IMG/VR virus record: IMGVR_UViG_3300013132_000314
Location: 1 to 20,995 of that record
Length of the DNA: 20,995 bases
Strand: one strand, 5' to 3'
Source: a virus
Part shown: piece after piece, positions 3,304 to 20,995 of the stretch
Layout of the letters: every line of letters starts with the position of its first letter
Position numbering within the stretch: the first letter of the stretch is position 1
Notes under the pieces: generated by a model
What the model was told of the DNA's origin: nothing
What the model saw: the letters and a program-made list of their open reading frames with translations, nothing else
Database searches by the model: none
Made by a program: the position numbers and the translations under genes

Positions 3304-3945
3304 ATGGCAGATGTTTATAGATATGGAATAACTTTTCCTCTAAGAGATAGTATTAATGGTACTTATTTTGAACAAACTTATCAATCAAAAGACGAAATAA
3401 GAGCATCCCTACTACATTTGCTTTTAACACAAAAAGGACAAAGATATTATAACGTGGATTTCGGTACTGACATCTACAAATACATTTTTGATCCAATGGA
3501 CGGAGACACCTTTGAAAATATTAGAGAAGAAGTAGAAACACAAGTTAAAAAATATATACCGAATTTAGAAATAAGCGACATAAAAGTAGAACCATTTACC
3601 CCTGAAGAAACAGATAATCAAGATAAAATAAACAGTATTGATTTTTTTAGTCCTCAGGAATTAGTAAACGATAGTATTATAAGAAGACAACTTGCAACAA
3701 ATCCTACAAATTATGAACCAACCCAAACAGTTCCTGAATATATAATATCACCATTTTCTGGTGAAGTTTTTTATAACTACGTTGGGCAACAATTTGATGA
3801 AACAAATGTTAATAGTGAATCTTATACGGATATTTTTAGAACACCAGGACCAAACACTTTAGAATATACTGCTAAACTAACTATAGTATATAGTGACACA
3901 AATAGTCCTTTTGGATCAAAAGAATTTCTAATAATAAATATATAA
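3304..3945 (+). CDS. gp25: Baseplate wedge protein, gp25/gpW-like
   Basis: This is a T4 gp25/P2 gpW-family protein, expected to bind the gp6-gp7-type core bundle and help join the baseplate wedge to the sheath. Residues 32-66 carry the family signature: an Ile-Arg-x-Ser-Leu helix, then LLTQKGQRYYNVDFGTDIYK leading to IFDPMD, followed by a helix and VKKYIPNLEISDIKVEP. At 213 aa it is much longer than T4 gp25 (about 130 aa). The extra length is an insert at roughly 100-185 before the last strand (TAKLTIVYSDTN). The family's EPR motif reads E96-P97-F98 here. It is the first gene after the terminator and direct repeats and lies six bases before the gp6-like gene, the conserved order 25-6. Assignment is confident. 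Confidence 0.88.
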   Translation: MADVYRYGITFPLRDSINGTYFEQTYQSKDEIRASLLHLLLTQKGQRYYNVDFGTDIYKYIFDPMDGDTFENIREEVETQVKKYIPNLEISDIKVEPFTPEETDNQDKINSIDFFSPQELVNDSIIRRQLATNPTNYEPTQTVPEYIISPFSGEVFYNYVGQQFDETNVNSESYTDIFRTPGPNTLEYTAKLTIVYSDTNSPFGSKEFLIINI

Positions 3946-3951
3946 AATATT

Positions 3952-5790
3952 ATGGCTGAAAAAAAATTATCATACACAGAAAGAGATTTTGTTGGATTAA
4001 GAAACGAACTTATTAATTTTACTCAAAAGTATTATCCCGATTTAGTACAAAACTTTAATGATGCGTCTATTTTTTCGGTATTAATGGACTTAAACGCGGC
4101 AATTGCTGATAATTTACACTTTCATATAGATAGGACCGCACAAGAAACTGTTTTACAGTATGCACAACAAAAATCATCAATTTACAACATTGCAAGAACT
4201 TATGGATTAAAAATACCTGGATATCGACCATCTGTTGCTATTGTTGATTTTTCAATAACAGTACCACCATTTGGTGATTCAGAAGATACTAGATATTTAG
4301 GAACTATTAGGGCAGGGTCTCAGTTTTTTGGTGGAGGAAACTCATTTGAAAATTTAAATGATATCGACTTTTCAACTCAATATGATCAACAAGGTTTTGT
4401 AAATAGAACAAAAATACCTACTTTTGATTCAAATAATAATATATTAAATTATGTTATTACAAAAAGAGAAGTTGTTGTTGCCGGAACAACTAAAGTATTT
4501 AAAAAATCAATTAGACCATCTGATGTTATACCATTTTTTAGTTTTTTTCTACCCGAAAGAAATGTATTAGGAGTAACAGGTATAATACAAAAAGATGGAA
4601 CATCTTTTCAATCTGTACCTACTTATGCTGAGTTTCAATCATCTACAGATAAATGGTATGAAGTTGATGCTTTGGCCGAAGACGTTGTATTTGTTGAAGA
4701 CCCAACAAAACCAATTGACTCATTTGGAATTAAACCTGGTAAATACATTAAAACTGACAATAGATTTATAACAGAATATACTGGAGAAGGGTTTATTAAA
4801 GTTCAATTCGGTGCCGGTACAACAACACCTGAACAACAACTAAAAGAGTTTACAAATACAGGTGTAAAATTAAGATTACAAGACTACCAAAATAATATTG
4901 GTTTAGGGTTAACCGTTAAACCTAATACAACTATTTTTGTACAATACAGAGTGGGTGGAGGTTCGTCAAGTAATGTTGGAACAGGTGCTATTAACCAAAT
5001 AGGTACAATTGATTTTGTTGTTAATGGACCTAGTGAACAGGTTAGTAGAAACGTAATACAGTCATTAAAATTAAATAACGTAACTGCTGCGATTGGTGGG
5101 TCCGATCCACCAACAACTGAAGAAATGAGAAATATGGTTGCGTTTAATTTTGCGGCACAAAAAAGGGCGGTAACAGTGAATGACTATAAATCTTTAATAG
5201 ATACAATGCCTGGTAGGTTTGGAGCACCTGCTAAAGTATCGATAACAGAAAATAATAATAAAATTTTAGTTCAAGTTTTATCATATGACACTAATGGTAA
5301 ACTTACACAACTAACTTCAAATAATCTTAAAAATAATTTAGCAAATTATCTTGCTAGATATAGAATGGTAAATGATTATATATCTATAGACAATGCAAAA
5401 GTCATAGATTTAGAATTTGACATTTCAGTAGTAATGGAATCAGACAGAAATCAAGGACAAGTTATTACTGAAATTATTTCAATAGTATCAAACTACATGG
5501 CACCCGCAAATAGAGACTTGGGCCAAGGGGTAAACATTTCTGAAATTAGAAAACAAATCCAAAACTTGACTGGTGTATTAACAATATCTGATTTGAAAAT
5601 TTTTAATAAAGTTGGTGGTAATTATTCATCATCTGAAACCTCACAAAAATATAAAGATCCGTCCACTAAAGAAATATCATTAATTGATGACAACATATTT
5701 GCGGAACCAGATCAAGTATACCAAATAAGGTTTGATAATATTGACATTAAAGTAAGAACGAAAAACTTTAAAACAGTTGACTTCTCATAA
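3952..5790 (+). CDS. gp6: Baseplate wedge protein, gp6/Baseplate_J-like
   Basis: This 612-aa protein matches the size and layout of T4 gp6 (about 660 aa), the subunit that forms the continuous ring holding baseplate wedges together. The N-terminal helical part (residues 6-90: YTERDFVGLRNELINF, then FNDASIFSVLMDLNA) is typical of gp6-like proteins that start near the wedge core. The Baseplate_J signature is residues 404-431, RAVTVNDYKSL followed by PGRFGAPAKVSI, after a PTTEEMRNMVAFNF helix. The region 485-555 (FDISVVMESD, then a helix and VNISEIRKQIQN) is the usual C-terminal fold of the family. It follows gp25 by six bases and probably shares its transcript. A 75-base gap follows, so a second promoter may serve the next genes. 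Confidence 0.88.
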   Translation: MAEKKLSYTERDFVGLRNELINFTQKYYPDLVQNFNDASIFSVLMDLNAAIADNLHFHIDRTAQETVLQYAQQKSSIYNIARTYGLKIPGYRPSVAIVDFSITVPPFGDSEDTRYLGTIRAGSQFFGGGNSFENLNDIDFSTQYDQQGFVNRTKIPTFDSNNNILNYVITKREVVVAGTTKVFKKSIRPSDVIPFFSFFLPERNVLGVTGIIQKDGTSFQSVPTYAEFQSSTDKWYEVDALAEDVVFVEDPTKPIDSFGIKPGKYIKTDNRFITEYTGEGFIKVQFGAGTTTPEQQLKEFTNTGVKLRLQDYQNNIGLGLTVKPNTTIFVQYRVGGGSSSNVGTGAINQIGTIDFVVNGPSEQVSRNVIQSLKLNNVTAAIGGSDPPTTEEMRNMVAFNFAAQKRAVTVNDYKSLIDTMPGRFGAPAKVSITENNNKILVQVLSYDTNGKLTQLTSNNLKNNLANYLARYRMVNDYISIDNAKVIDLEFDISVVMESDRNQGQVITEIISIVSNYMAPANRDLGQGVNISEIRKQIQNLTGVLTISDLKIFNKVGGNYSSSETSQKYKDPSTKEISLIDDNIFAEPDQVYQIRFDNIDIKVRTKNFKTVDFS

Positions 5791-5865: not shown

Positions 5866-8800
5866 ATGGGAAACAGCTATAGAATAAGAACCAATTTTGG
5901 TGACGATAAAAATATACGTATAAACGTTAATCAAAATTTTGATTTTCTAGAGATATTGTCTCTAAAACTAAAACAAGACGATGTTTATACTAGATTTTGT
6001 GCAGACTATGGCGTAGTTGCGGGTAGGGTTATAGTTAATGGAGGTTATGGTATACCTAATGCTAATGTCTCAATATTCATTCCACTTTCAGAAGTTGATG
6101 AAAACGATGTCGTTATATCGACATTATACCCATATAAAAGAATTGATCAAAAAAACGAAGATGGGTATAGGTATAATTTACTACCTTACAGACAAGAGTA
6201 TGGTGGACATACACCGACAGGTACGTTTCCAGATAGAGAAGACCTATTAACAAGAAGTGAAGTTTTAGAGGTTTATGAAAAATATTATAAATTCACAGCA
6301 AAAACAAATGAGAGCGGTGACTTTATGATTGTTGGGGTACCATTAGGTATCCAAACCATAATGATGGATTTAGACCTATCAAATATTGGTTGTTTTTCAT
6401 TAAGACCTGCAGATTTGATAAGAGCTGGTTTAGCAGGACCAGGACAATTTAACGGAAATCAATTCAAGTCGTCAACCGATTTAGATTCTTTACCACAAAT
6501 AGTTAATTTTAAAAAGGATATTGATGTAACATCATTTTGGGGTGAAGAAGAAATATGTAACATTGGAATTACTAGAGTTGATTTTGATCTTAGAGAACTA
6601 GGTATAGAAATAAAACCACAGGCGGTCTTTATGGGGTCAATATTTTCAACATCAAACGAAGATTTTTTAAAAACTACTTGTAAACCTAAAAAAGATGCTG
6701 GTAATCTATGTGATATGGTTACTGGTGAAGGTAAAATTTTGGCTATACGACAAACAATCAATTATGATGTAAATGGTAGACCTGTATTAGAACAATTTTC
6801 TTTAGAAAATGGAGGAGACGTTATAGATGAAAACGGAACATGGTTGGTTGAAGTACCAATGAATTTAGACTATGTTGTTACAAATGAATTTGGTGAACAA
6901 GTAATCTCAAATGACCCATCAATAGGCATTCCAACAAAAGGAAAATATAGATTTAGAGTCCAATACCAAAACGAATCTGGCATGGAAAACGATATAATGA
7001 GAGGTGATTATTTAGTGCCAAACGTCAAAGAATGGGGATGGTCAACATCTAATATTAACGGTCCTGATACCTTTAACTCAACACAGTTAGACCAACAAAA
7101 AAAATCATACGCATTTAGTTTGGATTGGAATGATTATGGTGATTTAACAACAACAGTAGGTCAACAAATGGTTCAAGAGGCTATTGATTGTAAAGATAGA
7201 TTCTATGAATTTACATTCAATAAAGTTTATACTGTTGCAAACTTTGTAGATAGATGGAAATGGGGGTTTAATAGAAGTAGACATTTAGGTATAAAAGAAA
7301 TAACTGACAGAAGATGCACAACAACAACAAATAGATTTCCTGTTAATGATGGAGTAAGAAACTTTGATTTTACATTTTTCTTATTTAATCTAATGATAAC
7401 AATAATGACACCTGTGTTTTTGGCACTTATACCAATACTACACTTGTTAGCATTACTTTGGCCAATACTAAAATGGTTTTTGGCGATACTATTTCCCGCT
7501 TACCTACTTTATCAAGCGGTATTATATGGTATAGATGGAGTTAATGCTTGGCCAGCATTTGGGTTAGTTGCTTGGTCATTTGTTAAGGCAATATTGATGG
7601 CGGGGGCGGCAACCGCATTTGCAATTAAAGTTGCACCATTATTAGTTGCTTTTAAATTTAAAGGAATAAACCTACCGATGATGTCGTATCCTGATTGTGA
7701 GGCATGTCCATGTGAAAGTGAAGATTTGGATACACCTGATGTTACGGGAACTGTATTTTCTTCAGGTAATGGTCAAGGAAGTTCTCAAGTTTACGGAGAT
7801 TATACCGTATATAATAGAAGTGGAGGGTCATTTTTAGCGGATACAAATGTTGGATCAACATGGGGTATTTTACAAGGAGACCAAACAAACACCATACCTG
7901 TTGGTATGAATAGTGAAGACTACATCTTTGGTGGTGCACAAGTTAAACAAAATAAATTACAAGCAGATTTAAATGGTTTTAGATATGCAATAGCAGGGTA
8001 CCCAACCCCACCTGAAATTGGTACTCCTGTTGTTAGTATATTTTCCGATAATCAATATGTACAGGCACAAGGGGTTCCATATTCACAATCTTTAAATTTA
8101 GCAAACATAAGAGAAAGATATTTTGACACAACAACACCAAATATAATAAGAACAACTGTAAATAATCCTGGTTATCCTTCATCACCGTTTGATGATAATG
8201 TTTTGATACTTTTATGTGAACCAGGAACATTAACAAATTTTAATTCAGGAAGTTTAATATCTTTTGTCGATACAAATAACACCAATATTGTTAATGATAT
8301 TAATAACGTTAGCGGGACAACGAACCAATTTGGGACAAACGCAATAACTGGAAGCTCAATTACTGCTACCACCGTTTATCCGACAACCGTAAGTTATTTA
8401 AAACAAGATCAAACAATAGTTTCTGCAACCGTTTATTTGACTGCAACAACCGCGGAGTCAGAGTATAAATTCAAAACAGGAGTTGAATATTTTCAAGTGA
8501 TTACTGGACTTACAGTATCATCTGCATTTTCTTTATATGATAGTGCGGTTAATTCATTATTAAAAAAGTATGTCTTAAATAAGACACAAAGAGTTTATTA
8601 TGAAAAATCAAATGGTAATGATGATAGTGTCGTATTAAATCAATTAACATCTATTGGATCATCAACTTATCAGAATTTAGAAATAATAATTTTAAATAGA
8701 GGTGTGGATCCATACACACAAAAACAAAAAATAAAATATGACTTATCTAAATTGTTTGGATATAATTTAGGTTCCGACACCATTTCAATTGAAGGTGATT

Positions 8801-10827
8801 TCTATATGAATAGACCGATACAAGAAAACAGTGGTAGTGGTTCATGGTACGTCAGTGCAAAATCACCCGAACCCCATACAAACAATTTAAATAGTAAATT
8901 ATTTTTTACACCATATAATTTTACAGTCGACACTACCCATTTTACTTCAGTTACTAGTACCGCATTAAGTTATTATTCTTCTTTAGATAAAAGTAATTTA
9001 AGTTTTCAACCCGATTCAAATGCATTTACTATTTCACATTATACATCTAGTAGTGATGTTGATGACAATGGTAGTAACACACAAACAATAAGGTTTGATG
9101 ATACAAACACATTTCAAGGAAATGTTGAAGGAGGGTCTTTTATTGGAAGCACTGAGACTAACGGAAACATATTTGGATCTTTAGGGAATTATAAAGGTAG
9201 AGTTTATGCACCAAAGTACTCAACAATAAATTTAACTATAACATCCGCTAACCCAAAATTAGTTTTAAGATCCGATAGGTTACCAACGTCGGATAAGTTA
9301 CAAAATTTTGGAAATAATTCATTTGCACTACATCAAAACGATAATTTTGCAATTTATAAACAAGATTATGGAAATAGTGCACCCCCTAACCCACCAACAG
9401 GAAATGTTGCAACAGACTCTACTAATAATTCTGGTGATTTTACTGGTGACACCCCATCTGTTCAGGATAGTGTTTTAAGTACATTTAGTTGTGAAGGAAT
9501 GGTACCATTAAAATGTTATGATTATGATAGTAATGGTAATTTTATAGTTAAAGATCCTTGTGATGAGAATGACCCTAAAGTTGTAAAGGGTGGGTGCTAT
9601 AATTTAGTACAAAAACCATTTATTGTATCAATAGGTAAAGATATTGTTAATTTTGCAGAATGGAAGGCCAGGTTTAGAATGATGTTTGGTGCTTGTAGAG
9701 GGGTTTTCTCACACGTATTCCAAAATAATTGGGTAAATGGTACTTTATATATGTACTCTTTTAAAAAGAAAACAATTTTCAATATTACAGGACAACCAAA
9801 AAAATATAAATTTTGCGGAACCTTAGATAATAATTTTAGACCAGGTCAGGGTCCTATTTATTATACTGAAGGAACAACAAATTCATTATTTTATAGATCA
9901 ACACCTTATGATGGAAATAACTTTATTGGTCAAAAACCAAAAAAGAAAGATTTGTCAGGAAATTGGCAAGACGTTGATTTCAAAGGCACTAATGACCACA
10001 ATATATTTTTCCCAACAACTTTGATGGATTTAGGTTCTAGAGATGAGTTTGTTAGGGAAATTTGTTTTAATCCGGCATTAGAGGCGTATTATGTTAATAA
10101 TCTAAAATCATCATCATTTAACGAAACTGCAGATATATTACAATTATTTTTTGTTTCAAGACTAGTTAGTAGTAACTTTTTACAAAATATTATAGGGGCT
10201 GGCGACGCATCAATTAATAAATTATTTTCTAGAACTGAAGATAGAATGGATGGTGACGTTGTACAAATGTTTAGTATTAATTCAGAGTATGGCGTTGTAC
10301 CATTTAGTGAAGATGAATACGACGACCCAAATGACCTATACGTCCCACCGACACCTGACCCTCTTATGGGTATTTTCTTTTCTTCAGATACGAGGACAAG
10401 AGCTTTAGCGTCACCTGGTACTATTGTATTTGCCCCAACATTAACATCAAACTTTGGGTATCCTAAATCACAAGAAGTACCAATGTATAAATGGAGTTCC
10501 GCTAATCAAAATACAATATTTGGTAACGAACTTAATGATTGGTTTACAACGCCTAATCAGAATATAGGAGGAAATGGATTCTTTTCAGAAAATTACCAAA
10601 ATTTAAGTTTTATACAATCACCTTTTTCCCCTTATTTTAACAACGGACCCACAGGACAAAAAGGTTATATTTATAATACAGACCAAAACGGTGTACAAAC
10701 CGAAACTTGGCCTTCTTCACAATCTGATAAGTATGTTGTTGGTGCACCTTATCATTTTTATTTTGGTTTGAATGTTGGAAAAACTGCAATAAACAGATAT
10801 ATAACAAAATACATTCTTAACGTATAA
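5866..10827 (+). CDS. Giant baseplate/tail-module protein with hydrophobic multi-span segment
   Basis: I do not recognise a named family for this 1653-aa protein. Residues about 50-170 look like a carboxypeptidase-regulatory-type beta-sandwich: VVAGRVIVNGGYGIPNANVS early and an ESGDFMIVGVPLG strand pair late. Residues about 501-595 are strongly hydrophobic and Trp/Pro-rich (FFLFNLMITIMTPVFLALIP, ILKWFLAILFPAYLLYQAVL, and a second half at about 558-595), enough for three or four membrane spans. A C611-x2-C614-x-C616 cluster follows at once. Residues 620-1200 are Ser/Thr/Asn-rich beta-like sequence. Cys residues 1209, 1217, 1232 and 1244 precede a more compact C-terminal domain. There is no N-terminal signal peptide. 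Sitting between gp6-like and gpI/gp7-like genes, it is probably a virion baseplate component; a membrane-penetrating role is inference. The next gene overlaps its stop by one base. Confidence 0.8.
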   Translation: MGNSYRIRTNFGDDKNIRINVNQNFDFLEILSLKLKQDDVYTRFCADYGVVAGRVIVNGGYGIPNANVSIFIPLSEVDENDVVISTLYPYKRIDQKNEDGYRYNLLPYRQEYGGHTPTGTFPDREDLLTRSEVLEVYEKYYKFTAKTNESGDFMIVGVPLGIQTIMMDLDLSNIGCFSLRPADLIRAGLAGPGQFNGNQFKSSTDLDSLPQIVNFKKDIDVTSFWGEEEICNIGITRVDFDLRELGIEIKPQAVFMGSIFSTSNEDFLKTTCKPKKDAGNLCDMVTGEGKILAIRQTINYDVNGRPVLEQFSLENGGDVIDENGTWLVEVPMNLDYVVTNEFGEQVISNDPSIGIPTKGKYRFRVQYQNESGMENDIMRGDYLVPNVKEWGWSTSNINGPDTFNSTQLDQQKKSYAFSLDWNDYGDLTTTVGQQMVQEAIDCKDRFYEFTFNKVYTVANFVDRWKWGFNRSRHLGIKEITDRRCTTTTNRFPVNDGVRNFDFTFFLFNLMITIMTPVFLALIPILHLLALLWPILKWFLAILFPAYLLYQAVLYGIDGVNAWPAFGLVAWSFVKAILMAGAATAFAIKVAPLLVAFKFKGINLPMMSYPDCEACPCESEDLDTPDVTGTVFSSGNGQGSSQVYGDYTVYNRSGGSFLADTNVGSTWGILQGDQTNTIPVGMNSEDYIFGGAQVKQNKLQADLNGFRYAIAGYPTPPEIGTPVVSIFSDNQYVQAQGVPYSQSLNLANIRERYFDTTTPNIIRTTVNNPGYPSSPFDDNVLILLCEPGTLTNFNSGSLISFVDTNNTNIVNDINNVSGTTNQFGTNAITGSSITATTVYPTTVSYLKQDQTIVSATVYLTATTAESEYKFKTGVEYFQVITGLTVSSAFSLYDSAVNSLLKKYVLNKTQRVYYEKSNGNDDSVVLNQLTSIGSSTYQNLEIIILNRGVDPYTQKQKIKYDLSKLFGYNLGSDTISIEGDFYMNRPIQENSGSGSWYVSAKSPEPHTNNLNSKLFFTPYNFTVDTTHFTSVTSTALSYYSSLDKSNLSFQPDSNAFTISHYTSSSDVDDNGSNTQTIRFDDTNTFQGNVEGGSFIGSTETNGNIFGSLGNYKGRVYAPKYSTINLTITSANPKLVLRSDRLPTSDKLQNFGNNSFALHQNDNFAIYKQDYGNSAPPNPPTGNVATDSTNNSGDFTGDTPSVQDSVLSTFSCEGMVPLKCYDYDSNGNFIVKDPCDENDPKVVKGGCYNLVQKPFIVSIGKDIVNFAEWKARFRMMFGACRGVFSHVFQNNWVNGTLYMYSFKKKTIFNITGQPKKYKFCGTLDNNFRPGQGPIYYTEGTTNSLFYRSTPYDGNNFIGQKPKKKDLSGNWQDVDFKGTNDHNIFFPTTLMDLGSRDEFVREICFNPALEAYYVNNLKSSSFNETADILQLFFVSRLVSSNFLQNIIGAGDASINKLFSRTEDRMDGDVVQMFSINSEYGVVPFSEDEYDDPNDLYVPPTPDPLMGIFFSSDTRTRALASPGTIVFAPTLTSNFGYPKSQEVPMYKWSSANQNTIFGNELNDWFTTPNQNIGGNGFFSENYQNLSFIQSPFSPYFNNGPTGQKGYIYNTDQNGVQTETWPSSQSDKYVVGAPYHFYFGLNVGKTAINRYITKYILNV

Positions 10828-14536: not shown

Positions 14537-15445
14537 ATGGCATTAGGAACATACGGAACCATAAGACCCTCAGATGTATCACCAACAGATGTTGAAATAA
14601 TATTACATTATTCGGCAACAAGAGATGTTACAAATGATTTTACTTTAAAAAAATTGAACGCTTCAAGCATTCTTACACCATATTTCCACAATTCAGAAAC
14701 AGGAGGTAATGCAGATATTGAAGTTTTAGGAGGACTTTATAATCTAAAATTACCAACAACAGAATTTAATAAATTAGGTATATATACTCTTTTTATTAGA
14801 CCTGCTGAAATAAGAACAACAATAACAGACTGCGGGGTCCTTTCTTCTTTACCTAATGTAAAAGGTATAGTTATAGACATAAACAATGTTCCTAGCGATT
14901 ATAGAAATAAATTCATAAATCAAGGACTTGTTGGATTCAGAGTAGAGTATTTAAATTCTGACGGAACAAAAATTACAAATTTTTATAGAATTATCACATC
15001 TTCATTTTTTTGTGAACCTGTTGTTACCGAACAAGTAAATACATCTCAAAAGTCAATAAGATATCGTTATGTGGACGGAGGGACCGATTTAATTTTTTGT
15101 ACACTTTCGCCATCTTCTTCACCGACTAACAAACCATCGGCAACCCCATTTATTGGCCAACCTAATCAAAATATAATTATAACTAATACATTTTTTGATC
15201 CAATAACTATAGACATTCAAATGACTGAGCACGATATAGATACTTTAGGTATTGCATTATATGGTAATCAAACAAAAAGTATTGAAGACGGTGTTTACAC
15301 TATGTATGATTCTAATAATAATATATACAAACAGTATAATTTATTTGAAATACGAGATAACTTTAATGAATTATTATATGAGGTTAGACAAGAAAAAATA
15401 AACGGATTCGATTTTAGTAAGAACTTTACAAATATTGTTAGTTAA
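14537..15445 (+). CDS. Probable baseplate/tail protein, unknown family
   Basis: This 302-aa protein begins MALGTYGTIRPSDVSPTDVE and has no family that I can name. The first 190 residues look like a compact folded domain with alternating strands (IEVLGGLYNLKLP, GIYTLFIRPAE, VGFRVEYLNSDG). A Ser/Pro/Thr linker (SPSSSPTNKPSATP, 191-204) follows, then a second domain of about 95 residues (IIITNTFFDPITIDIQMTEH and onward). Cys residues are C99, C159 and C188. The A-rich leader AAATAAAAAA precedes ATGG, with no Shine-Dalgarno. Its stop shares a base with the gpI/gp7-like start, so it is probably coupled to that baseplate gene and may be its structural partner. That link is inference. Confidence 0.75.
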   Translation: MALGTYGTIRPSDVSPTDVEIILHYSATRDVTNDFTLKKLNASSILTPYFHNSETGGNADIEVLGGLYNLKLPTTEFNKLGIYTLFIRPAEIRTTITDCGVLSSLPNVKGIVIDINNVPSDYRNKFINQGLVGFRVEYLNSDGTKITNFYRIITSSFFCEPVVTEQVNTSQKSIRYRYVDGGTDLIFCTLSPSSSPTNKPSATPFIGQPNQNIIITNTFFDPITIDIQMTEHDIDTLGIALYGNQTKSIEDGVYTMYDSNNNIYKQYNLFEIRDNFNELLYEVRQEKINGFDFSKNFTNIVS

Positions 15446-18396
15446 TGGCTAGTAAAAAATATTTTTATCCACCAGCACCACCAGTAGGGTCAGAAACTTT
15501 CTCAAATGATATTGTGGGATTCCAAACGATTAATGGGGGCGGATTAACAAATGCAAATTTTAGATTTGTAAATAACACAAAAGACAAAACAAATAGAGGG
15601 TTTGATACTGGAGTATTTTCTAAACCACAAAATTTAGAGTCACTTGATATTAAAAATATTGAAGAAACTAAAGAACTAATACAAAAAAATTTTAAAATTT
15701 ACCCAAATTTTGATTTAACACAAGTAACAAGTTTTTGTACATACGGATCAATTCAAAAAAGACTTTCAACATCGGTTATAAATATTGTTAATAAATTTCC
15801 TGGCGCGATCATATCTAATGAATTTATTTTTGGTAATATAACCGCAGACACTGCTTTTAATGCGATATACGATCCTTTGGAAGATATAACTAATTTTGAA
15901 ATGGATACTAATGCGTTTAGAAATCCTTTTAATATTGATTATACTGTAAATGCGCCTAGAACAGTAGAAACAGCACCAATAAAAGTATCAAAATATAGGG
16001 ATTTAACGACAAACTATAGAAGTTATTCAGTCTATATTGGTGACTTTTTAAAAGAATATTCATTAATAACATTCACACCTTCTGAACAACTTTTAGATGA
16101 TACTGTAAATATTACAGTAAAAGGAAACCCATTTTCTGGCAAAACCGGATACTCAGGTACAATGATTATTAGACCAAATGACGTTACTGTAGAAAGTATA
16201 TTTAATTTGGAGTTTGATGAAATTGAAAAATTTTTACTAAACAGGAATATTGAACCTAAATATAGTGCGACTTTCAAATACTCTGAAAATTCTTCAGACG
16301 GTAAAACTAGAGATTTTGTAGAAAAAATTACTTGGCCACTTATAGATCAGTGGAATTTAGACATTAAAACAGAAAATTTTGAGAAATACCTTCAAAAAAT
16401 AAGTCAAATAGGTAAAAGTTTAGATACTGACAAAACTAATTTAATATCTAGATTTTTAACAACAAACGCACTAAAAGATTTTGACACTTCAGATAAAAAA
16501 ATGGAAAAAGTTTTACAACTATACGGTAGAAGTTTTGATGAAGTTAAAAAATTTGTAGATTCTTTATCTCATATGACATCAGTAAATTATAATGTTGGAA
16601 ACGATATACCTTCACAGTTACTTAAAAATTTAGCACAAACACTAGGAATAAACACCGATATCTCACCAATAACAAATGAATCTTTTTTGAGTTCAGTTTT
16701 TAACACAGATAATAAAAAAATATATGGAGGTAAATCCAAAGACGACTCCCCAACAGAACTAAACTATCAATATTATAGGAATGTTATTCTAAATTCTGCA
16801 TATATGTTTAAATCTAAAGGGACAAGACAATCTTTAGAATATATAATGAGGTTTATTGGTGCGCCTGAAGCCTTAATTGAATTTAATGAAATCATATACG
16901 TTGCTGATGGTAAAATACGTATGGATGAGTTTGAAGAGAAATTTGCACAAATTTCAGGAGGGACAATTTATGAAGAAAAACCCATATTAAACCCAAACGT
17001 TACATATTCATTATTAGGTGTAATTTATACTGGATTCACTAGCGGAGGATTCATAAGTTTTAATTCAAACACTAGACAAGATTATGGTATTGATGACAAA
17101 GGTTTCCCAAAAAGCCCAAGGGCAACCGAAAATACCTTTTATCAAAAGGGTTCGGGTTGGTTTGAAAAAAGTCCAAAACACAGATCGCCAGAAATTATTG
17201 ATGACGCGAATTCATCTTTTGACCCTAGAAATCTTTCTTTAAAAACAAAATTACAACCATTTAGTTTTGGGCAAGAATATATGGATAAGTTTAGAAAACC
17301 TGATTTTATGGGGGGTATGGGTTATACATTAACTAGAATAAATGATAATAAAAAATCTTGGGTTTCAAATGAAGTTGGTAATAGAGTTAATAAACAAAAC
17401 TTCAATGGGGTAAATTATAAAGTTAATGATGATAAATTAGTTATAAATTCTAAAAATATAGAACTATATGCGAACGTAGGTCAAGGAATTACATACGATA
17501 TTTGGGACATGTCTGTAAATTTTGGATACCCTATACCTAATTCTGCTATGACATCACCTTATCCTACGCCAGGTAATATAGATTGGACAACAATAAACCC
17601 AAAACCAAAAGAAAAAACATTTTTTGAATTTGCTCAGTCTTTTTATAACAATTTTATAAATGTTAGAAACAGACAAACCATATTTGATGGTAAAACTGGA
17701 GGGTACCCAACACTCCAATCGGTTTTTTGGAGATACCTTCAATCTGAAGAAACCGTTGGATTACCAACAAATAAATTTACATATCAAAAACTTATAGATT
17801 ATACATTGGGTCTTGGTGATTATTGGCAAAGACTTTTAGAACAGGTTGTTCCTGCTACCACGCTTTGGTTAACCGGACAAAAGTTAGATAACTCAATTTT
17901 TCATAGACAAAAATTTGTTTGGAGAAGACAAAGAGGTTGTGTGTTCATTCCTGTTGAATGTATTCCTTGTGAGTATAACGGGCAACCATTTGTTTATGAC
18001 TGTATCGATCAAACCTTAAAATGTCAATTACCGACAGCATCACCAGCCGGTATATTAGGTAACATATTAAATAACGTATTAAATGGAAGTGGATATACCC
18101 AAAGTCAATGTGATTTAAATTCTATTATATCGACTTGGTTTGTTGATTGTAGAATAGGAAATCAAATATTAGTTCAAGAACAATTTTATGTTGGTTATGG
18201 TTATAACGATTTCCCAACAAATAGTGAAGTAATAAATGCAATAAACGATAAGTTACAAACACTTTATAACTATGGTTTAAATTATTTTTTTAGTGGTAAT
18301 GTTTTAACAATTAGTAATAGTACTTGTTATGATGACTTCACAAATAAAACTTTATCATTAAATATTGGTATAAACATTCAAATAAATTGTAGTTAA
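15445..18396 (+). CDS. Baseplate wedge/tail protein with gpI (T4 gp7-like) core
   Basis: The middle of this 983-aa protein resembles the P2 tail protein I fold. Residues 353-402 have a long helix (MEKVLQLYGRSFDEVKKFVD) and DIPSQLLKNLAQTLGI; residues 451-482 carry SAYMFKSKGTRQSLEYIMRF followed by IGAPEALIEFNE, the gpI hallmark of an aligned helix, KGT turn and helix. T4 gp7 (about 1030 aa) is the counterpart of gpI and forms the wedge core with gp6 and gp25, so length and context agree. The N-terminal 350 residues may be a gp7-like extension. Residues about 788-832 (GLGDYWQRLLEQVVPATTLW and onward) end the wedge part. The C-terminus is Cys-rich (C832, C839, C842, C853, C860) and carries a roughly 70-residue domain (914-983) that resembles one in the next gene. 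One-base overlaps flank it on both sides. Core assignment is moderately firm. Confidence 0.72.
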   Translation: MASKKYFYPPAPPVGSETFSNDIVGFQTINGGGLTNANFRFVNNTKDKTNRGFDTGVFSKPQNLESLDIKNIEETKELIQKNFKIYPNFDLTQVTSFCTYGSIQKRLSTSVINIVNKFPGAIISNEFIFGNITADTAFNAIYDPLEDITNFEMDTNAFRNPFNIDYTVNAPRTVETAPIKVSKYRDLTTNYRSYSVYIGDFLKEYSLITFTPSEQLLDDTVNITVKGNPFSGKTGYSGTMIIRPNDVTVESIFNLEFDEIEKFLLNRNIEPKYSATFKYSENSSDGKTRDFVEKITWPLIDQWNLDIKTENFEKYLQKISQIGKSLDTDKTNLISRFLTTNALKDFDTSDKKMEKVLQLYGRSFDEVKKFVDSLSHMTSVNYNVGNDIPSQLLKNLAQTLGINTDISPITNESFLSSVFNTDNKKIYGGKSKDDSPTELNYQYYRNVILNSAYMFKSKGTRQSLEYIMRFIGAPEALIEFNEIIYVADGKIRMDEFEEKFAQISGGTIYEEKPILNPNVTYSLLGVIYTGFTSGGFISFNSNTRQDYGIDDKGFPKSPRATENTFYQKGSGWFEKSPKHRSPEIIDDANSSFDPRNLSLKTKLQPFSFGQEYMDKFRKPDFMGGMGYTLTRINDNKKSWVSNEVGNRVNKQNFNGVNYKVNDDKLVINSKNIELYANVGQGITYDIWDMSVNFGYPIPNSAMTSPYPTPGNIDWTTINPKPKEKTFFEFAQSFYNNFINVRNRQTIFDGKTGGYPTLQSVFWRYLQSEETVGLPTNKFTYQKLIDYTLGLGDYWQRLLEQVVPATTLWLTGQKLDNSIFHRQKFVWRRQRGCVFIPVECIPCEYNGQPFVYDCIDQTLKCQLPTASPAGILGNILNNVLNGSGYTQSQCDLNSIISTWFVDCRIGNQILVQEQFYVGYGYNDFPTNSEVINAINDKLQTLYNYGLNYFFSGNVLTISNSTCYDDFTNKTLSLNIGINIQINCS

Positions 18397-20807
18397 TGGC
18401 TTGTATTACTGGATATACACTTGGGGGGTATTATAATTATATAGATTGTTGCGGTAATAAAGTTGAAGGTCTTGCTGCCACAACTGAATCGGTTTGTTTA
18501 GATGCGACTTTTTCAGGTTCCGCCGTAGGGATTAGTGCTGATACCTCAAGTACATGTACTCAAAATTGTGATTTAGGACCATTAAATTATAGTTTCTTAG
18601 TAACAGGGACGTGTTACGCGGCTTCAGGCACAACAATAATAAACGTTTTCAACGGAACCCCAATATATACGGTTAATAATGAAATACCTGGGGGATATCC
18701 TTCACAGACAGGGTTAGGACCTTTTACTTTTAGTGGGTTAAGTGCCGGTACTTACACTTTTAGAATAAATGATTCTTCAGGTGGTGTTAATGAAGATCTT
18801 TATGTTAATGTTATAATAAGCGATTGTTTCAGGGCTAGATTATATGACGTTTCGGGAACAACTTGTGGTGAAAATAATGGGTCATTTTATGTTAGTGCAA
18901 CGACAACTGCGTCACCATACACTTTATTTTTATATGAGAGCGGCAATTTAGTTGATTTTGTTACAACACCAACACAACCATATCAATTTAACAATCTATC
19001 TTCAGGAATTTATTATGTTAATTTTGTTGATTTTGGTAATGTCACGGCAACAACAGGTAATGGTGTCGTAATACCTAGTACAGGTCCTGATTTTGGATTT
19101 TGGAAAGTTAACACATCAAATTGTGTGATAGATAAAGGAAAGTTAGCGGTTACCGGTGTAACGGGTACTGGACCTTTTACTTACTTATGGTCTAACGGAG
19201 AAACAACACAACTAATAACAGGACTTACCCAAGGTTCTTACAGTTGTACAGTAACTGATAGTTTAGGCTGTTCAGTGACTAAATTTGAAACAGTAGGTAT
19301 TGCCGACCCTATAGGTTTAGGTTTAGTTACTGCAATTAATCCATCTTGTTTCAATTCTGATGGATCTTTGACATACACACTTACAGGCGGTACTACACCA
19401 TTTTATTATTCAGCAAATACAGGTCAGGTTGGGTACACACTTTCAGATACTTTTGTTATTACTGGACTCACAAACGGTAATTATACTACAGTAGTAAGAG
19501 ACGCCAATTTTTGTGAGTTTACCTTTAATGATTTTTTAAGCACACCGAATGGGTTTAATGTTGTTAATACAACAATAACTAATTCAAATTGTTCTCAAAA
19601 CAACGGACAAATACAAGTTAATTTGTCTGGTGGGTATAATATTTACAATTATTATTTATCGGGTCAAACTACAGGGTTTGTAAATGTAGAAACAGGACCA
19701 TTTGTTAGTTACACTTCACCTTTATTAGCTAACGATAACTACTTATTAGTAATATCAGCTTCAAGTAGTAGTTGTGTTTACACAAACACTTTTAGTGTTA
19801 ATTCACAACAAAAATTTACAATAAGTGCGAATACAACAGGATCTACTTGTGGTTATAATAATGGTTCTTTAGAAATAAATGTAAGTAGTGGATACACAGG
19901 ATTATTAGATTACGTTTTAAGTGACGGGCAATCAATAATAGATACAACATTATCATCTTATACATTTACAAATTTATATGCCGGCAGTTATAACATTACT
20001 GTTACAGATCAGAGCGGATGTTCAGTTACTGAACAAGTTATAATCACAACTTCAGGTAGTTTGGTTAGTACTATATCAACAACATCTTGTACAGGAAATA
20101 ATGATGGACAAGCAACTGTAAACATATTTGACGGAGTACCGCCAATAACATATTCATGGTCAAATAACGTTCCGGGGTTACAAACAGGAACTACGGTAAC
20201 AGGACTAACCGCAGGTACTTACAGTGTACTTGTAACCGACTCTAATGGATGTTTTAAAAATCATAATTTTACACTACAATGTAATTCCAATTTAGTCACT
20301 TCTTATGATATTTACACTTTATGTAAAAACACTTTTGTAACATCAACAGGTAACCAAAGAGGGTTTTTTGAAATGTTAAACGAAGGTTATTTAGATATTA
20401 CTTCAGGATATACTGGTTGTGTGTTTAGTGGGGCAGTATTTAACGCCCAAGTTAATATTAACGGAAGCGCTTTCACTCAAAGTTTTTATACCGCAACAAC
20501 ATTAAATGATGTACCTCAAGATACATTATGGCAATCAACAATAGAAAATATTTTATCAGGAATTGATGAGGTTGGTAGTTATAATATTGATTTATTAAAC
20601 AATACATTACAAATAAAATCAAATTGTGACGGCGATTTTGATCCACTAGCTGATGCGTTTTTTAGTTTAGGATTAGAGATAGTTTATGACGTTACCTGTG
20701 ACGCAACACCTACACCAACACCTACACCAACACCTACACCAACACCATTACCACCACCAATAAGTTGTGGAATGTCAGGATATACTTTTGAAATAAACCA
20801 ACCATAA
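18396..20807 (+). CDS. SprB-repeat tail adhesin candidate with TP-repeat linker
   Basis: This 803-aa protein is built of about seven units of roughly 80 residues (59-629). Typical parts are a Cys before an NNGS/NDGQ-like turn (C157, C243, C318, C399, C485, C565), a YxWSN strand (units 3 and 7), a GLxxGxY strand and VTDxxGC (288-292, 538-542, 615-619). This is the pattern of the SprB repeat of Bacteroidota gliding adhesins. The N-terminus is Cys-rich (C3, C18, C19, C34, C54, C58). After the repeats come a domain at 696-768, seven Thr-Pro pairs (771-784) and a short Cys-containing end (ISCGMSGYTFEINQP). No signal peptide or type IX sorting domain is evident, so it is more likely a virion protein than a secreted one. 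It shares one base with the upstream baseplate gene. Host binding is inferred. Confidence 0.8.
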   Translation: MACITGYTLGGYYNYIDCCGNKVEGLAATTESVCLDATFSGSAVGISADTSSTCTQNCDLGPLNYSFLVTGTCYAASGTTIINVFNGTPIYTVNNEIPGGYPSQTGLGPFTFSGLSAGTYTFRINDSSGGVNEDLYVNVIISDCFRARLYDVSGTTCGENNGSFYVSATTTASPYTLFLYESGNLVDFVTTPTQPYQFNNLSSGIYYVNFVDFGNVTATTGNGVVIPSTGPDFGFWKVNTSNCVIDKGKLAVTGVTGTGPFTYLWSNGETTQLITGLTQGSYSCTVTDSLGCSVTKFETVGIADPIGLGLVTAINPSCFNSDGSLTYTLTGGTTPFYYSANTGQVGYTLSDTFVITGLTNGNYTTVVRDANFCEFTFNDFLSTPNGFNVVNTTITNSNCSQNNGQIQVNLSGGYNIYNYYLSGQTTGFVNVETGPFVSYTSPLLANDNYLLVISASSSSCVYTNTFSVNSQQKFTISANTTGSTCGYNNGSLEINVSSGYTGLLDYVLSDGQSIIDTTLSSYTFTNLYAGSYNITVTDQSGCSVTEQVIITTSGSLVSTISTTSCTGNNDGQATVNIFDGVPPITYSWSNNVPGLQTGTTVTGLTAGTYSVLVTDSNGCFKNHNFTLQCNSNLVTSYDIYTLCKNTFVTSTGNQRGFFEMLNEGYLDITSGYTGCVFSGAVFNAQVNINGSAFTQSFYTATTLNDVPQDTLWQSTIENILSGIDEVGSYNIDLLNNTLQIKSNCDGDFDPLADAFFSLGLEIVYDVTCDATPTPTPTPTPTPTPLPPPISCGMSGYTFEINQP
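18564..20282 (+). repeat. Seven degenerate SprB-like protein repeats
   Basis: Units lie at about residues 59-143, 144-230, 231-305, 306-384, 385-470, 471-554 and 555-629 of the 803-aa protein. Units 3, 6 and 7 keep the full GLxxGxY, VTDxxGC pattern; units 1, 2, 4 and 5 have drifted. The DNA is not visibly repeated, so this is old divergence and not a recent expansion. Confidence 0.7.
20706..20747 (+). repeat. 12-bp tandem repeat encoding Thr-Pro linker
   Basis: ACACCTACACCA is repeated at 20706-20717, 20718-20729 and 20730-20741, followed by a half unit ACACCA. In frame it encodes seven Thr-Pro pairs, an extended stiff linker between the 696-768 domain and the Cys-containing C-terminus. The identical 12-base units suggest recent expansion by replication slippage; each unit gained or lost keeps the frame (four codons). 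Confidence 0.9.
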
Positions 20808-20815
20808 TTAAATAT

Positions 20816-20995
20816 ATGCCATTCTCTGCTGTTACATGCTTATCTTATACTGGAACAACACCATTAGGTGGGATAATAAATCTTTATAGTGATGTTGATA
20901 GTTTTACAAGTGCTTTTACTACTAATATAAATTTATCTGCAATAACAGGAAACGAATGTCCTTACTATATAAGTAATGTACCTGATGGTACTACA
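20816..20995 (+). CDS. Start of a further structural/adhesin-like gene, cut by window edge
   Basis: ATG at 20816, eight bases after the SprB-repeat gene, opens a frame without stops for 60 codons to the window end. The product begins MPFSAVTCLSYTGTTPLGGI and contains LYSDVDSFTSAF and CPYYISNVPDGTT. The two Cys residues (C8 and C52), the Thr/Ser/Asn-rich composition and the position fit another tail-fibre or adhesin component. The domain from C8 to the end may be one repeat unit. No family is recognised, and the remainder lies outside the window. Confidence 0.7.
   Translation, partial: MPFSAVTCLSYTGTTPLGGIINLYSDVDSFTSAFTTNINLSAITGNECPYYISNVPDGTT

Follow-up and report, generated by a model that had tools for sequence, protein, structure and literature searches.

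The window analysed here is the whole stretch of 20,995 bases of an IMG/VR virus record, on which the genes lie on the plus strand. Helicase-like and ribonucleotide reductase-like genes are followed by a gp25-like gene, a gp6/Baseplate J-like gene, large tail-module genes, a gene for a 983-aa protein and the SprB-repeat gene (Table 1). The assignment of the baseplate genes (GPW_gp25, Baseplate_J) at 3304-5790 is firm; they lie upstream of the SprB gene in conserved order, which places the latter in a tail module near baseplate genes. The gp6-like protein aligns with its counterpart from Flavobacterium phage immuto at 27% over 91%. Within the module, a 1653-aa protein (5866-10827) is hydrophobic and membrane-like over a long central segment (about aa 510-600), and a 302-aa protein without assigned function (14537-15445) is the most conserved of all, with identities that never drop below 76% across the 63 related loci. 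The gene behind the SprB gene is cut by the window end; a full-length relative (L041:15384-17642) encodes 752 aa, for which no Pfam family was found.

Table 1. Positions of the genes and protein domains discussed in the text. Plain numbers refer to the window, those with a locus name to contigs of related phages.
Feature	Position	Strand	Evidence
gp25-like baseplate wedge protein	3304-3945	+	Pfam GPW_gp25, E 1.2e-10
gp6/Baseplate J-like wedge protein	3952-5790	+	Pfam, E 1.3e-6; PHROG 219, E 1.7e-21
983-aa tail protein, always precedes SprB gene	15445-18396	+	weak DUF2612; synteny
C-terminal domain of 983-aa protein, paralogue of 20280-20699	18022-18393	+	
SprB-repeat tail protein, 803 aa	18396-20807	+	ORF; Pfam SprB, E 3.1e-14
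N-terminal domain (aa 1-62), conserved cysteines	18396-18581	+	alignment, AlphaFold2
Ig-like unit 1 (aa 63-144), beta-sandwich, below SprB threshold	18582-18827	+	
Ig-like unit 2 (aa 145-231), beta-sandwich, below SprB threshold	18828-19088	+	
SprB unit 3 (aa 232-305), highest conservation (mean identity 0.71)	19089-19310	+	
SprB unit 4 (aa 306-385)	19311-19550	+	
SprB unit 5 (aa 386-472)	19551-19811	+	
SprB unit 6 (aa 473-554)	19812-20057	+	
SprB unit 7 (aa 555-628), best single Pfam match, 35.8 bits	20058-20279	+	
C-terminal domain (aa 629-768), paralogue of C-terminal domain of 983-aa protein	20280-20699	+	HMM, hhalign, AlphaFold2
Pro-Thr linker (TPTPTP...), 12-bp repeat CAACACCTACAC	20700-20759	+	TRF
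Short tip peptide ISCGMSGYTFEINQP	20760-20804	+	
Next tail-module gene, start only, cut by window end	20816-20995	+	
Sorted/signal-peptide protein (G007)	L219:5628-12545		
Sorted/signal-peptide protein (G006)	L222:2896-9321		
Sorted/signal-peptide protein (G007)	L220:6775-8985		
Sorted/signal-peptide protein (G001)	L121:7755-10214	-	

Domain structure of the SprB-repeat protein and its neighbour

The coordinates that an earlier note on this DNA had given for the SprB gene turned out to be exact, and so was its count of seven SprB-like units, which is borne out by the repeat spacing and by AlphaFold2. The units comprise 74-87 aa each. In the AlphaFold2 model, which used 39 aligned sequences (mean pLDDT 82), they form seven beta-sandwiches between an N-terminal domain and an alpha/beta C-terminal domain. 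A profile search with PF13573 (SprB) yielded 52.7 bits for the whole 803-aa protein, which is above the curated Pfam cut-off of 28. The five single profile matches all fall within units 3-7 (19143-20171). The units of the window score 17-36 bits, and unit 7 is the only one that exceeds the cut-off by itself. Units 1 and 2 are below the profile threshold and are SprB-like through position and fold. When the units were compared with each other, 12 of the 21 pairs scored higher than any of 200 shuffled comparisons, which reached 42 at most and averaged 5. In the VIA list, the SprB core is matched mostly by generic Ig/FN3 folds with Z up to 11, and a PDB sequence search gave only weak matches, at E 0.001-0.009, with decoration proteins and neck whisker proteins of phages.

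The ATG of the SprB gene overlaps the stop codon of the 983-aa gene by one base. The earlier note had called this neighbour a baseplate gene: it is a tail gene and directly adjacent, whereas its baseplate identity is plausible and goes back to a weak DUF2612 match (E 0.018). It is possible that the 983-aa protein connects baseplate and fibre, perhaps in the manner of P2 gpI, given its position between the baseplate and fibre genes. The AlphaFold2 model of this protein is poor overall (pLDDT 56), and Foldseek found no match with this low-confidence model. Its C-terminal domain is homologous to that of the SprB protein: an HMM of the SprB-protein domain finds the 983-aa relatives (i-E 2.9e-9), hhalign of the two domains gives E 5.9e-6, and the order of helices and strands is identical in two separate AlphaFold2 models.

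Relatives and conservation of the repeats

A single-sequence search with the SprB protein retrieved 35 relatives from IMG/VR, and a profile of the SprB core retrieved 113 loci, the longest contigs being 281 and 292 kb. For the 983-aa gene, 63 related IMG/VR loci were found. In 62 of these a relative of the SprB protein (46-88% identity) follows directly, and the 63rd locus ends at the 983-aa gene. Pattern scans of prokaryote genomes with the SprB core and the 983-aa protein, which can miss distant relatives, detected none. Among cultured phages, tblastn with the 983-aa protein gave no match, and with the SprB protein the only match was the uncultured 642-kb LR756502, where a different, T9SS-sorted protein was hit. 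The gp25 and gp6 proteins are shared with Flavobacterium phage immuto, Microcystis phage Mel-JY01 and LR756508, in which no SprB domain was found. The window comes from an uncultivated freshwater phage, the host of which is probably a member of the Bacteroidota, since its gp6 protein resembles that of immuto and since Bacteroidota-style signal peptides and T9SS sorting domains occur in the same phages.

Across the relatives, the SprB core has a length of about 760-797 aa and the number of units is constant at seven. Each unit is conserved position by position, with a mean identity of 0.47-0.71 per unit, and between the cores of L146 and L193 dN is 0.031 and dS 0.65. The units date back as far as the phage group itself, and variation is concentrated in the C-terminal tip and not in the repeats. 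The bacterial SprB-repeat proteins that were found share 24-39% identity with the 803-aa protein. The earlier note had suggested that the phage took the repeat from its host; a recent capture from a host adhesin was rejected on account of this divergence, the position-specific conservation and the fixed unit number.

Pro-Thr linkers and exchangeable tips

A Pro-Thr linker follows the C-terminal domain in 30 of the 65 distinct SprB relatives. In 26 of the 65, the protein ends after the C-terminal domain and carries no tip, so the stalk must be able to work without one. The tips comprise a Fib_succ_major domain (L063, E 4e-18), a PKD-like module just under its cut-off (L066), several unnamed domains and the short peptide that is present in the window, which is found again behind linkers of relatives and in a further gene of L013. 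Tips occur on the 983-aa protein as well: 12 of its 66 distinct relatives have one, in most cases attached through a Pro-Thr linker. The linker DNA is low-complexity and repetitive and occurs in several tail genes.

In the relatives, this linker is the joint at which the tips change. L146 and L193 have cores that are 95% identical and unrelated tips, which are bounded by the linker and the next gene. On the DNA level, identity is 87% up to the linker, the tips of about 1.2 and 0.44 kb show no homology to each other, and homology is back at the next gene (79%). The reverse is seen for L146 and L151, where cores of 67.7% identity carry a shared tip module of 92.1% identity. In L103, the tip of the 983-aa gene is homologous to tips of SprB genes of other phages (E 4e-7 to 9e-36). 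On the core tree the tip types are scattered, with 14 changes of type versus a minimum of 8; well-supported branches account for at least four changes for type 1 and at least six for the tipless state. Types 0 and 2 mostly track clades, and some tip types were simply inherited. Thus, tips have been exchanged between phages among the relatives, and the family combines a conserved core with an exchangeable distal part, as modular receptor-binding proteins do. When five related contigs, 115-292 kb long and possibly incomplete, were searched for RVT_1, the reverse transcriptase of diversity-generating retroelements, there was no match.

It could be argued that the exchange is an artefact in which short-read assemblers misjoined at repetitive linker DNA, as the linkers are of low complexity and occur in several genes. 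We regard this as very unlikely. For L146 and L193 homology resumes at the start of the next gene, so two misjoins would be needed, the second of them in non-repetitive DNA. The same tip types recur across metagenomes, L151 and L152 having the same core and tip type in two samples, and the tips are full-length in-frame domains.

Function of the SprB-repeat proteins

Taken together, we think it likely that the SprB gene encodes a virion tail adhesin with an Ig-like stalk of fixed length and exchangeable tips. In this model the phage would be a large contractile-tailed, T4-like phage of Bacteroidota. The N-terminal domain would probably anchor the protein at the baseplate, the seven Ig-like SprB-type domains are predicted from sequence and fold to form the stalk, and the C-terminal domain that is shared with the 983-aa protein would end it as a socket. 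Past the socket, a tip that can be exchanged may sit on the flexible Pro-Thr linker and make contact with the host surface. The repetitive linker DNA likely offers homology for recombination, by which tips may move from phage to phage, or from one of the two adjacent genes to the other, at the breakpoints seen in the relatives; this looks like a way to alter what the phage grips. In the phage of the window the tip is only the short peptide, and a larger binding domain may therefore sit on another tail protein. The paralogous socket domain and the linker provide a clear joint where phages, and also neighbouring genes, appear to exchange the pieces that contact the host. For a modular adhesin of a widespread uncultivated freshwater phage group, this amounts to a concrete and testable model for the possible evolution of host range.

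Location in the virion is the best reading of the tail context and the missing export signals. The earlier note had seen no sorting domain and had favoured use on the virion, and both points stand. Neither CHU_C nor Por_Secre_tail was detected in the 803-aa protein at E<=1 in Pfam, there was no NCBIfam match, and no hydrophobic signal-peptide segment was found at its N-terminus (MACITGYTLGGYYNYIDCC). In a crude hydropathy window, used in place of a dedicated signal-peptide predictor, the maximum over 12 residues is 0.77, compared to 1.7-2.6 in T9SS-sorted SprB proteins of phages, and the N-termini of 65 distinct tail versions are all less hydrophobic than that of any such sorted protein. It is this contrast with the SprB proteins of related phages, which bear signal peptides and T9SS sorting domains, that most strongly argues for the virion.

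It might also be that binding to polysaccharide or to the host surface is done by the SprB units as such and that the tips are secondary, although we consider this clearly less probable than the stalk model. In crAss-like phages, BACON domains form Ig-like tandem repeats in a tail-module protein, the arrays are diverged from bacterial copies, and a role in host binding has been proposed for them; a link to the binding of carbohydrates and cells has been drawn for Ig-like domains of phages (PMC6949934). The tipless relatives would fit such adhesive repeats, and so would the closest solved folds, which are fragments of GhpA from Aureispira (PDB 9flp and others; Foldseek E 5e-19). The GhpA structures bear the title 'grappling hook protein A', and according to a review, T9SS-secreted hooks attach to prey flagella in predation of this kind (PMC11205867). 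GhpA is likewise a Bacteroidota protein built as a chain of Ig-like units, but it is host-encoded, lies outside any tail context and shares 15-18% sequence identity with the 803-aa protein. Since stalks of Ig-like domains resemble numerous unrelated adhesion proteins in fold, what the match with GhpA shows is a common fold and not a common function. Moreover, the conservation and fixed number of the units are as expected of a stalk, variation lies in the tip, and no binding residues were identified in the units.

A third explanation, raised in the earlier note, is that the repeats were taken from the host so that the tail resembles or pairs with the gliding adhesin SprB. The Pfam match and the probable Bacteroidota host speak for such mimicry, which is nevertheless most improbable, since the units are conserved in place and fixed in number and their divergence from bacterial SprB is old and position-specific. 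No bacterial protein homologous to the entire core turned up in the pattern scan of species genomes, which may miss distant relatives. Many surface proteins of Bacteroidota that are not gliding adhesins contain PF13573 as well, and the repeat is widespread in proteins without a known gliding role. With SprB of Flavobacterium johnsoniae, the 803-aa protein has the PF13573 repeats in common, but it differs in its length of only 803 aa and in having no signal peptide, T9SS sorting domain or spr context; instead of an spr locus, the family is found in a phage tail module in all relatives. Display on the infected cell instead of the virion is hardly credible, as the SprB proteins of related phages that would suggest it carry a signal peptide and a sorting domain, the 803-aa protein carries neither, and its family lies within the tail module in every relative.

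Phage tails with tandem Ig-like repeats are already known, including those with the Bacteroidota-associated BACON arrays, and the crAss protein also resembles the one described here in its poorly conserved C-terminus. Here, however, the repeat is SprB (PF13573; no BACON family appeared among the Pfam matches of the 803-aa protein at E<=1), the phages are different, the units are fixed at seven, and a Pro-Thr linker with swappable tips is shared with a paralogous neighbour. Modular tail fibres and receptor-binding proteins, e.g. those of Klebsiella phages (PMC8262889), similarly join a conserved N-terminal part to an exchangeable C-terminal module; in the present case the stalk consists of Ig domains, exchange takes place at repetitive Pro-Thr linkers, and the tips are common to two adjacent genes via a paralogous domain. 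What is new is that tips are exchanged between neighbouring genes whose products have a paralogous socket domain in common; past this domain, each of the two proteins may continue into a Pro-Thr linker and a variable tip. The automatically annotated 714-aa protein A0A6J5LD72 ('SprB repeat', uncultured Caudovirales phage), with 34% identity over most of its length and a Foldseek E of 9e-60, probably represents the same family in the public record. A literature search found no paper on SprB repeats in phage tails or on A0A6J5LD72.

Contigs G001, G006, G007 and G008 of this phage group and the 642-kb phage LR756502 also code for other proteins, which end in a CHU_C or Por_Secre_tail sorting domain; SprB repeats and signal peptides are present in several of these. 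One example from LR756502.1 (L104:9325-14337) has 1670 aa, 14 SprB repeats, a PKD domain, a CHU_C T9SS sorting domain and a signal peptide. In G006 and G007, the gp23-like major capsid gene (match E 4e-74 in G007) is followed, immediately or at a short distance, by a cluster of genes for such proteins, and one of the SprB proteins, encoded in G007, is fused to a subtilase domain. Judged by these signals, the sorted SprB proteins would apparently be exported by the host. The best repeats of the sorted copies reach up to 54.7 bits against the SprB profile, and these scores, higher than those of the window units, fit an old recruitment of the repeat for the tail and a newer acquisition of the sorted proteins, a pattern that resembles the one reported for BACON in crAss-like phages (PMC6949934). 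We see about even chances that one domain family serves on both sides of adsorption, in virion stalks with swappable tips and in separate SprB proteins exported via the host T9SS. If so, the type IX system of the infected host would export phage-made adhesins or proteases to the cell surface or the medium. The sorting signals suggest that phages may use host type IX secretion, for which a literature search found no description.

Further genes with a bearing on the tail were noted in the relatives. On long contigs, the tail module contains a second SprB-repeat gene of about 524-541 aa (L124:30-1604 and equivalents), roughly 8 kb further downstream than the first; in the phage of the window it would be expected past the window end. 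Its product matches a PHROG of virion structural proteins (E 7e-11), and it is preceded by a protein with weak YadA-head similarity. The tail-fibre module also encloses genes for a glycosyltransferase (GlcNAc, PF11397, E 2.7e-68) and for HtrL_YibB (L123:7472-8719, L123:10865-11656 and equivalents in relatives), the products of which might modify tail proteins or their linkers. Small ORFs of 92-95 aa (L123:4467-4745, L122, L120) encode single-domain proteins that resemble one SprB/Ig unit, some of which terminate in a short peptide similar to the 'TEDSYFMITEEGF' tip that is found in part of the SprB genes. Several small proteins from ORFs of L120, L121, L122, L124 and L220 share an N-terminal tag such as MKRIVRLTESDLARIVRRVINEE, which by analogy is perhaps a capsid-targeting propeptide as in T4.
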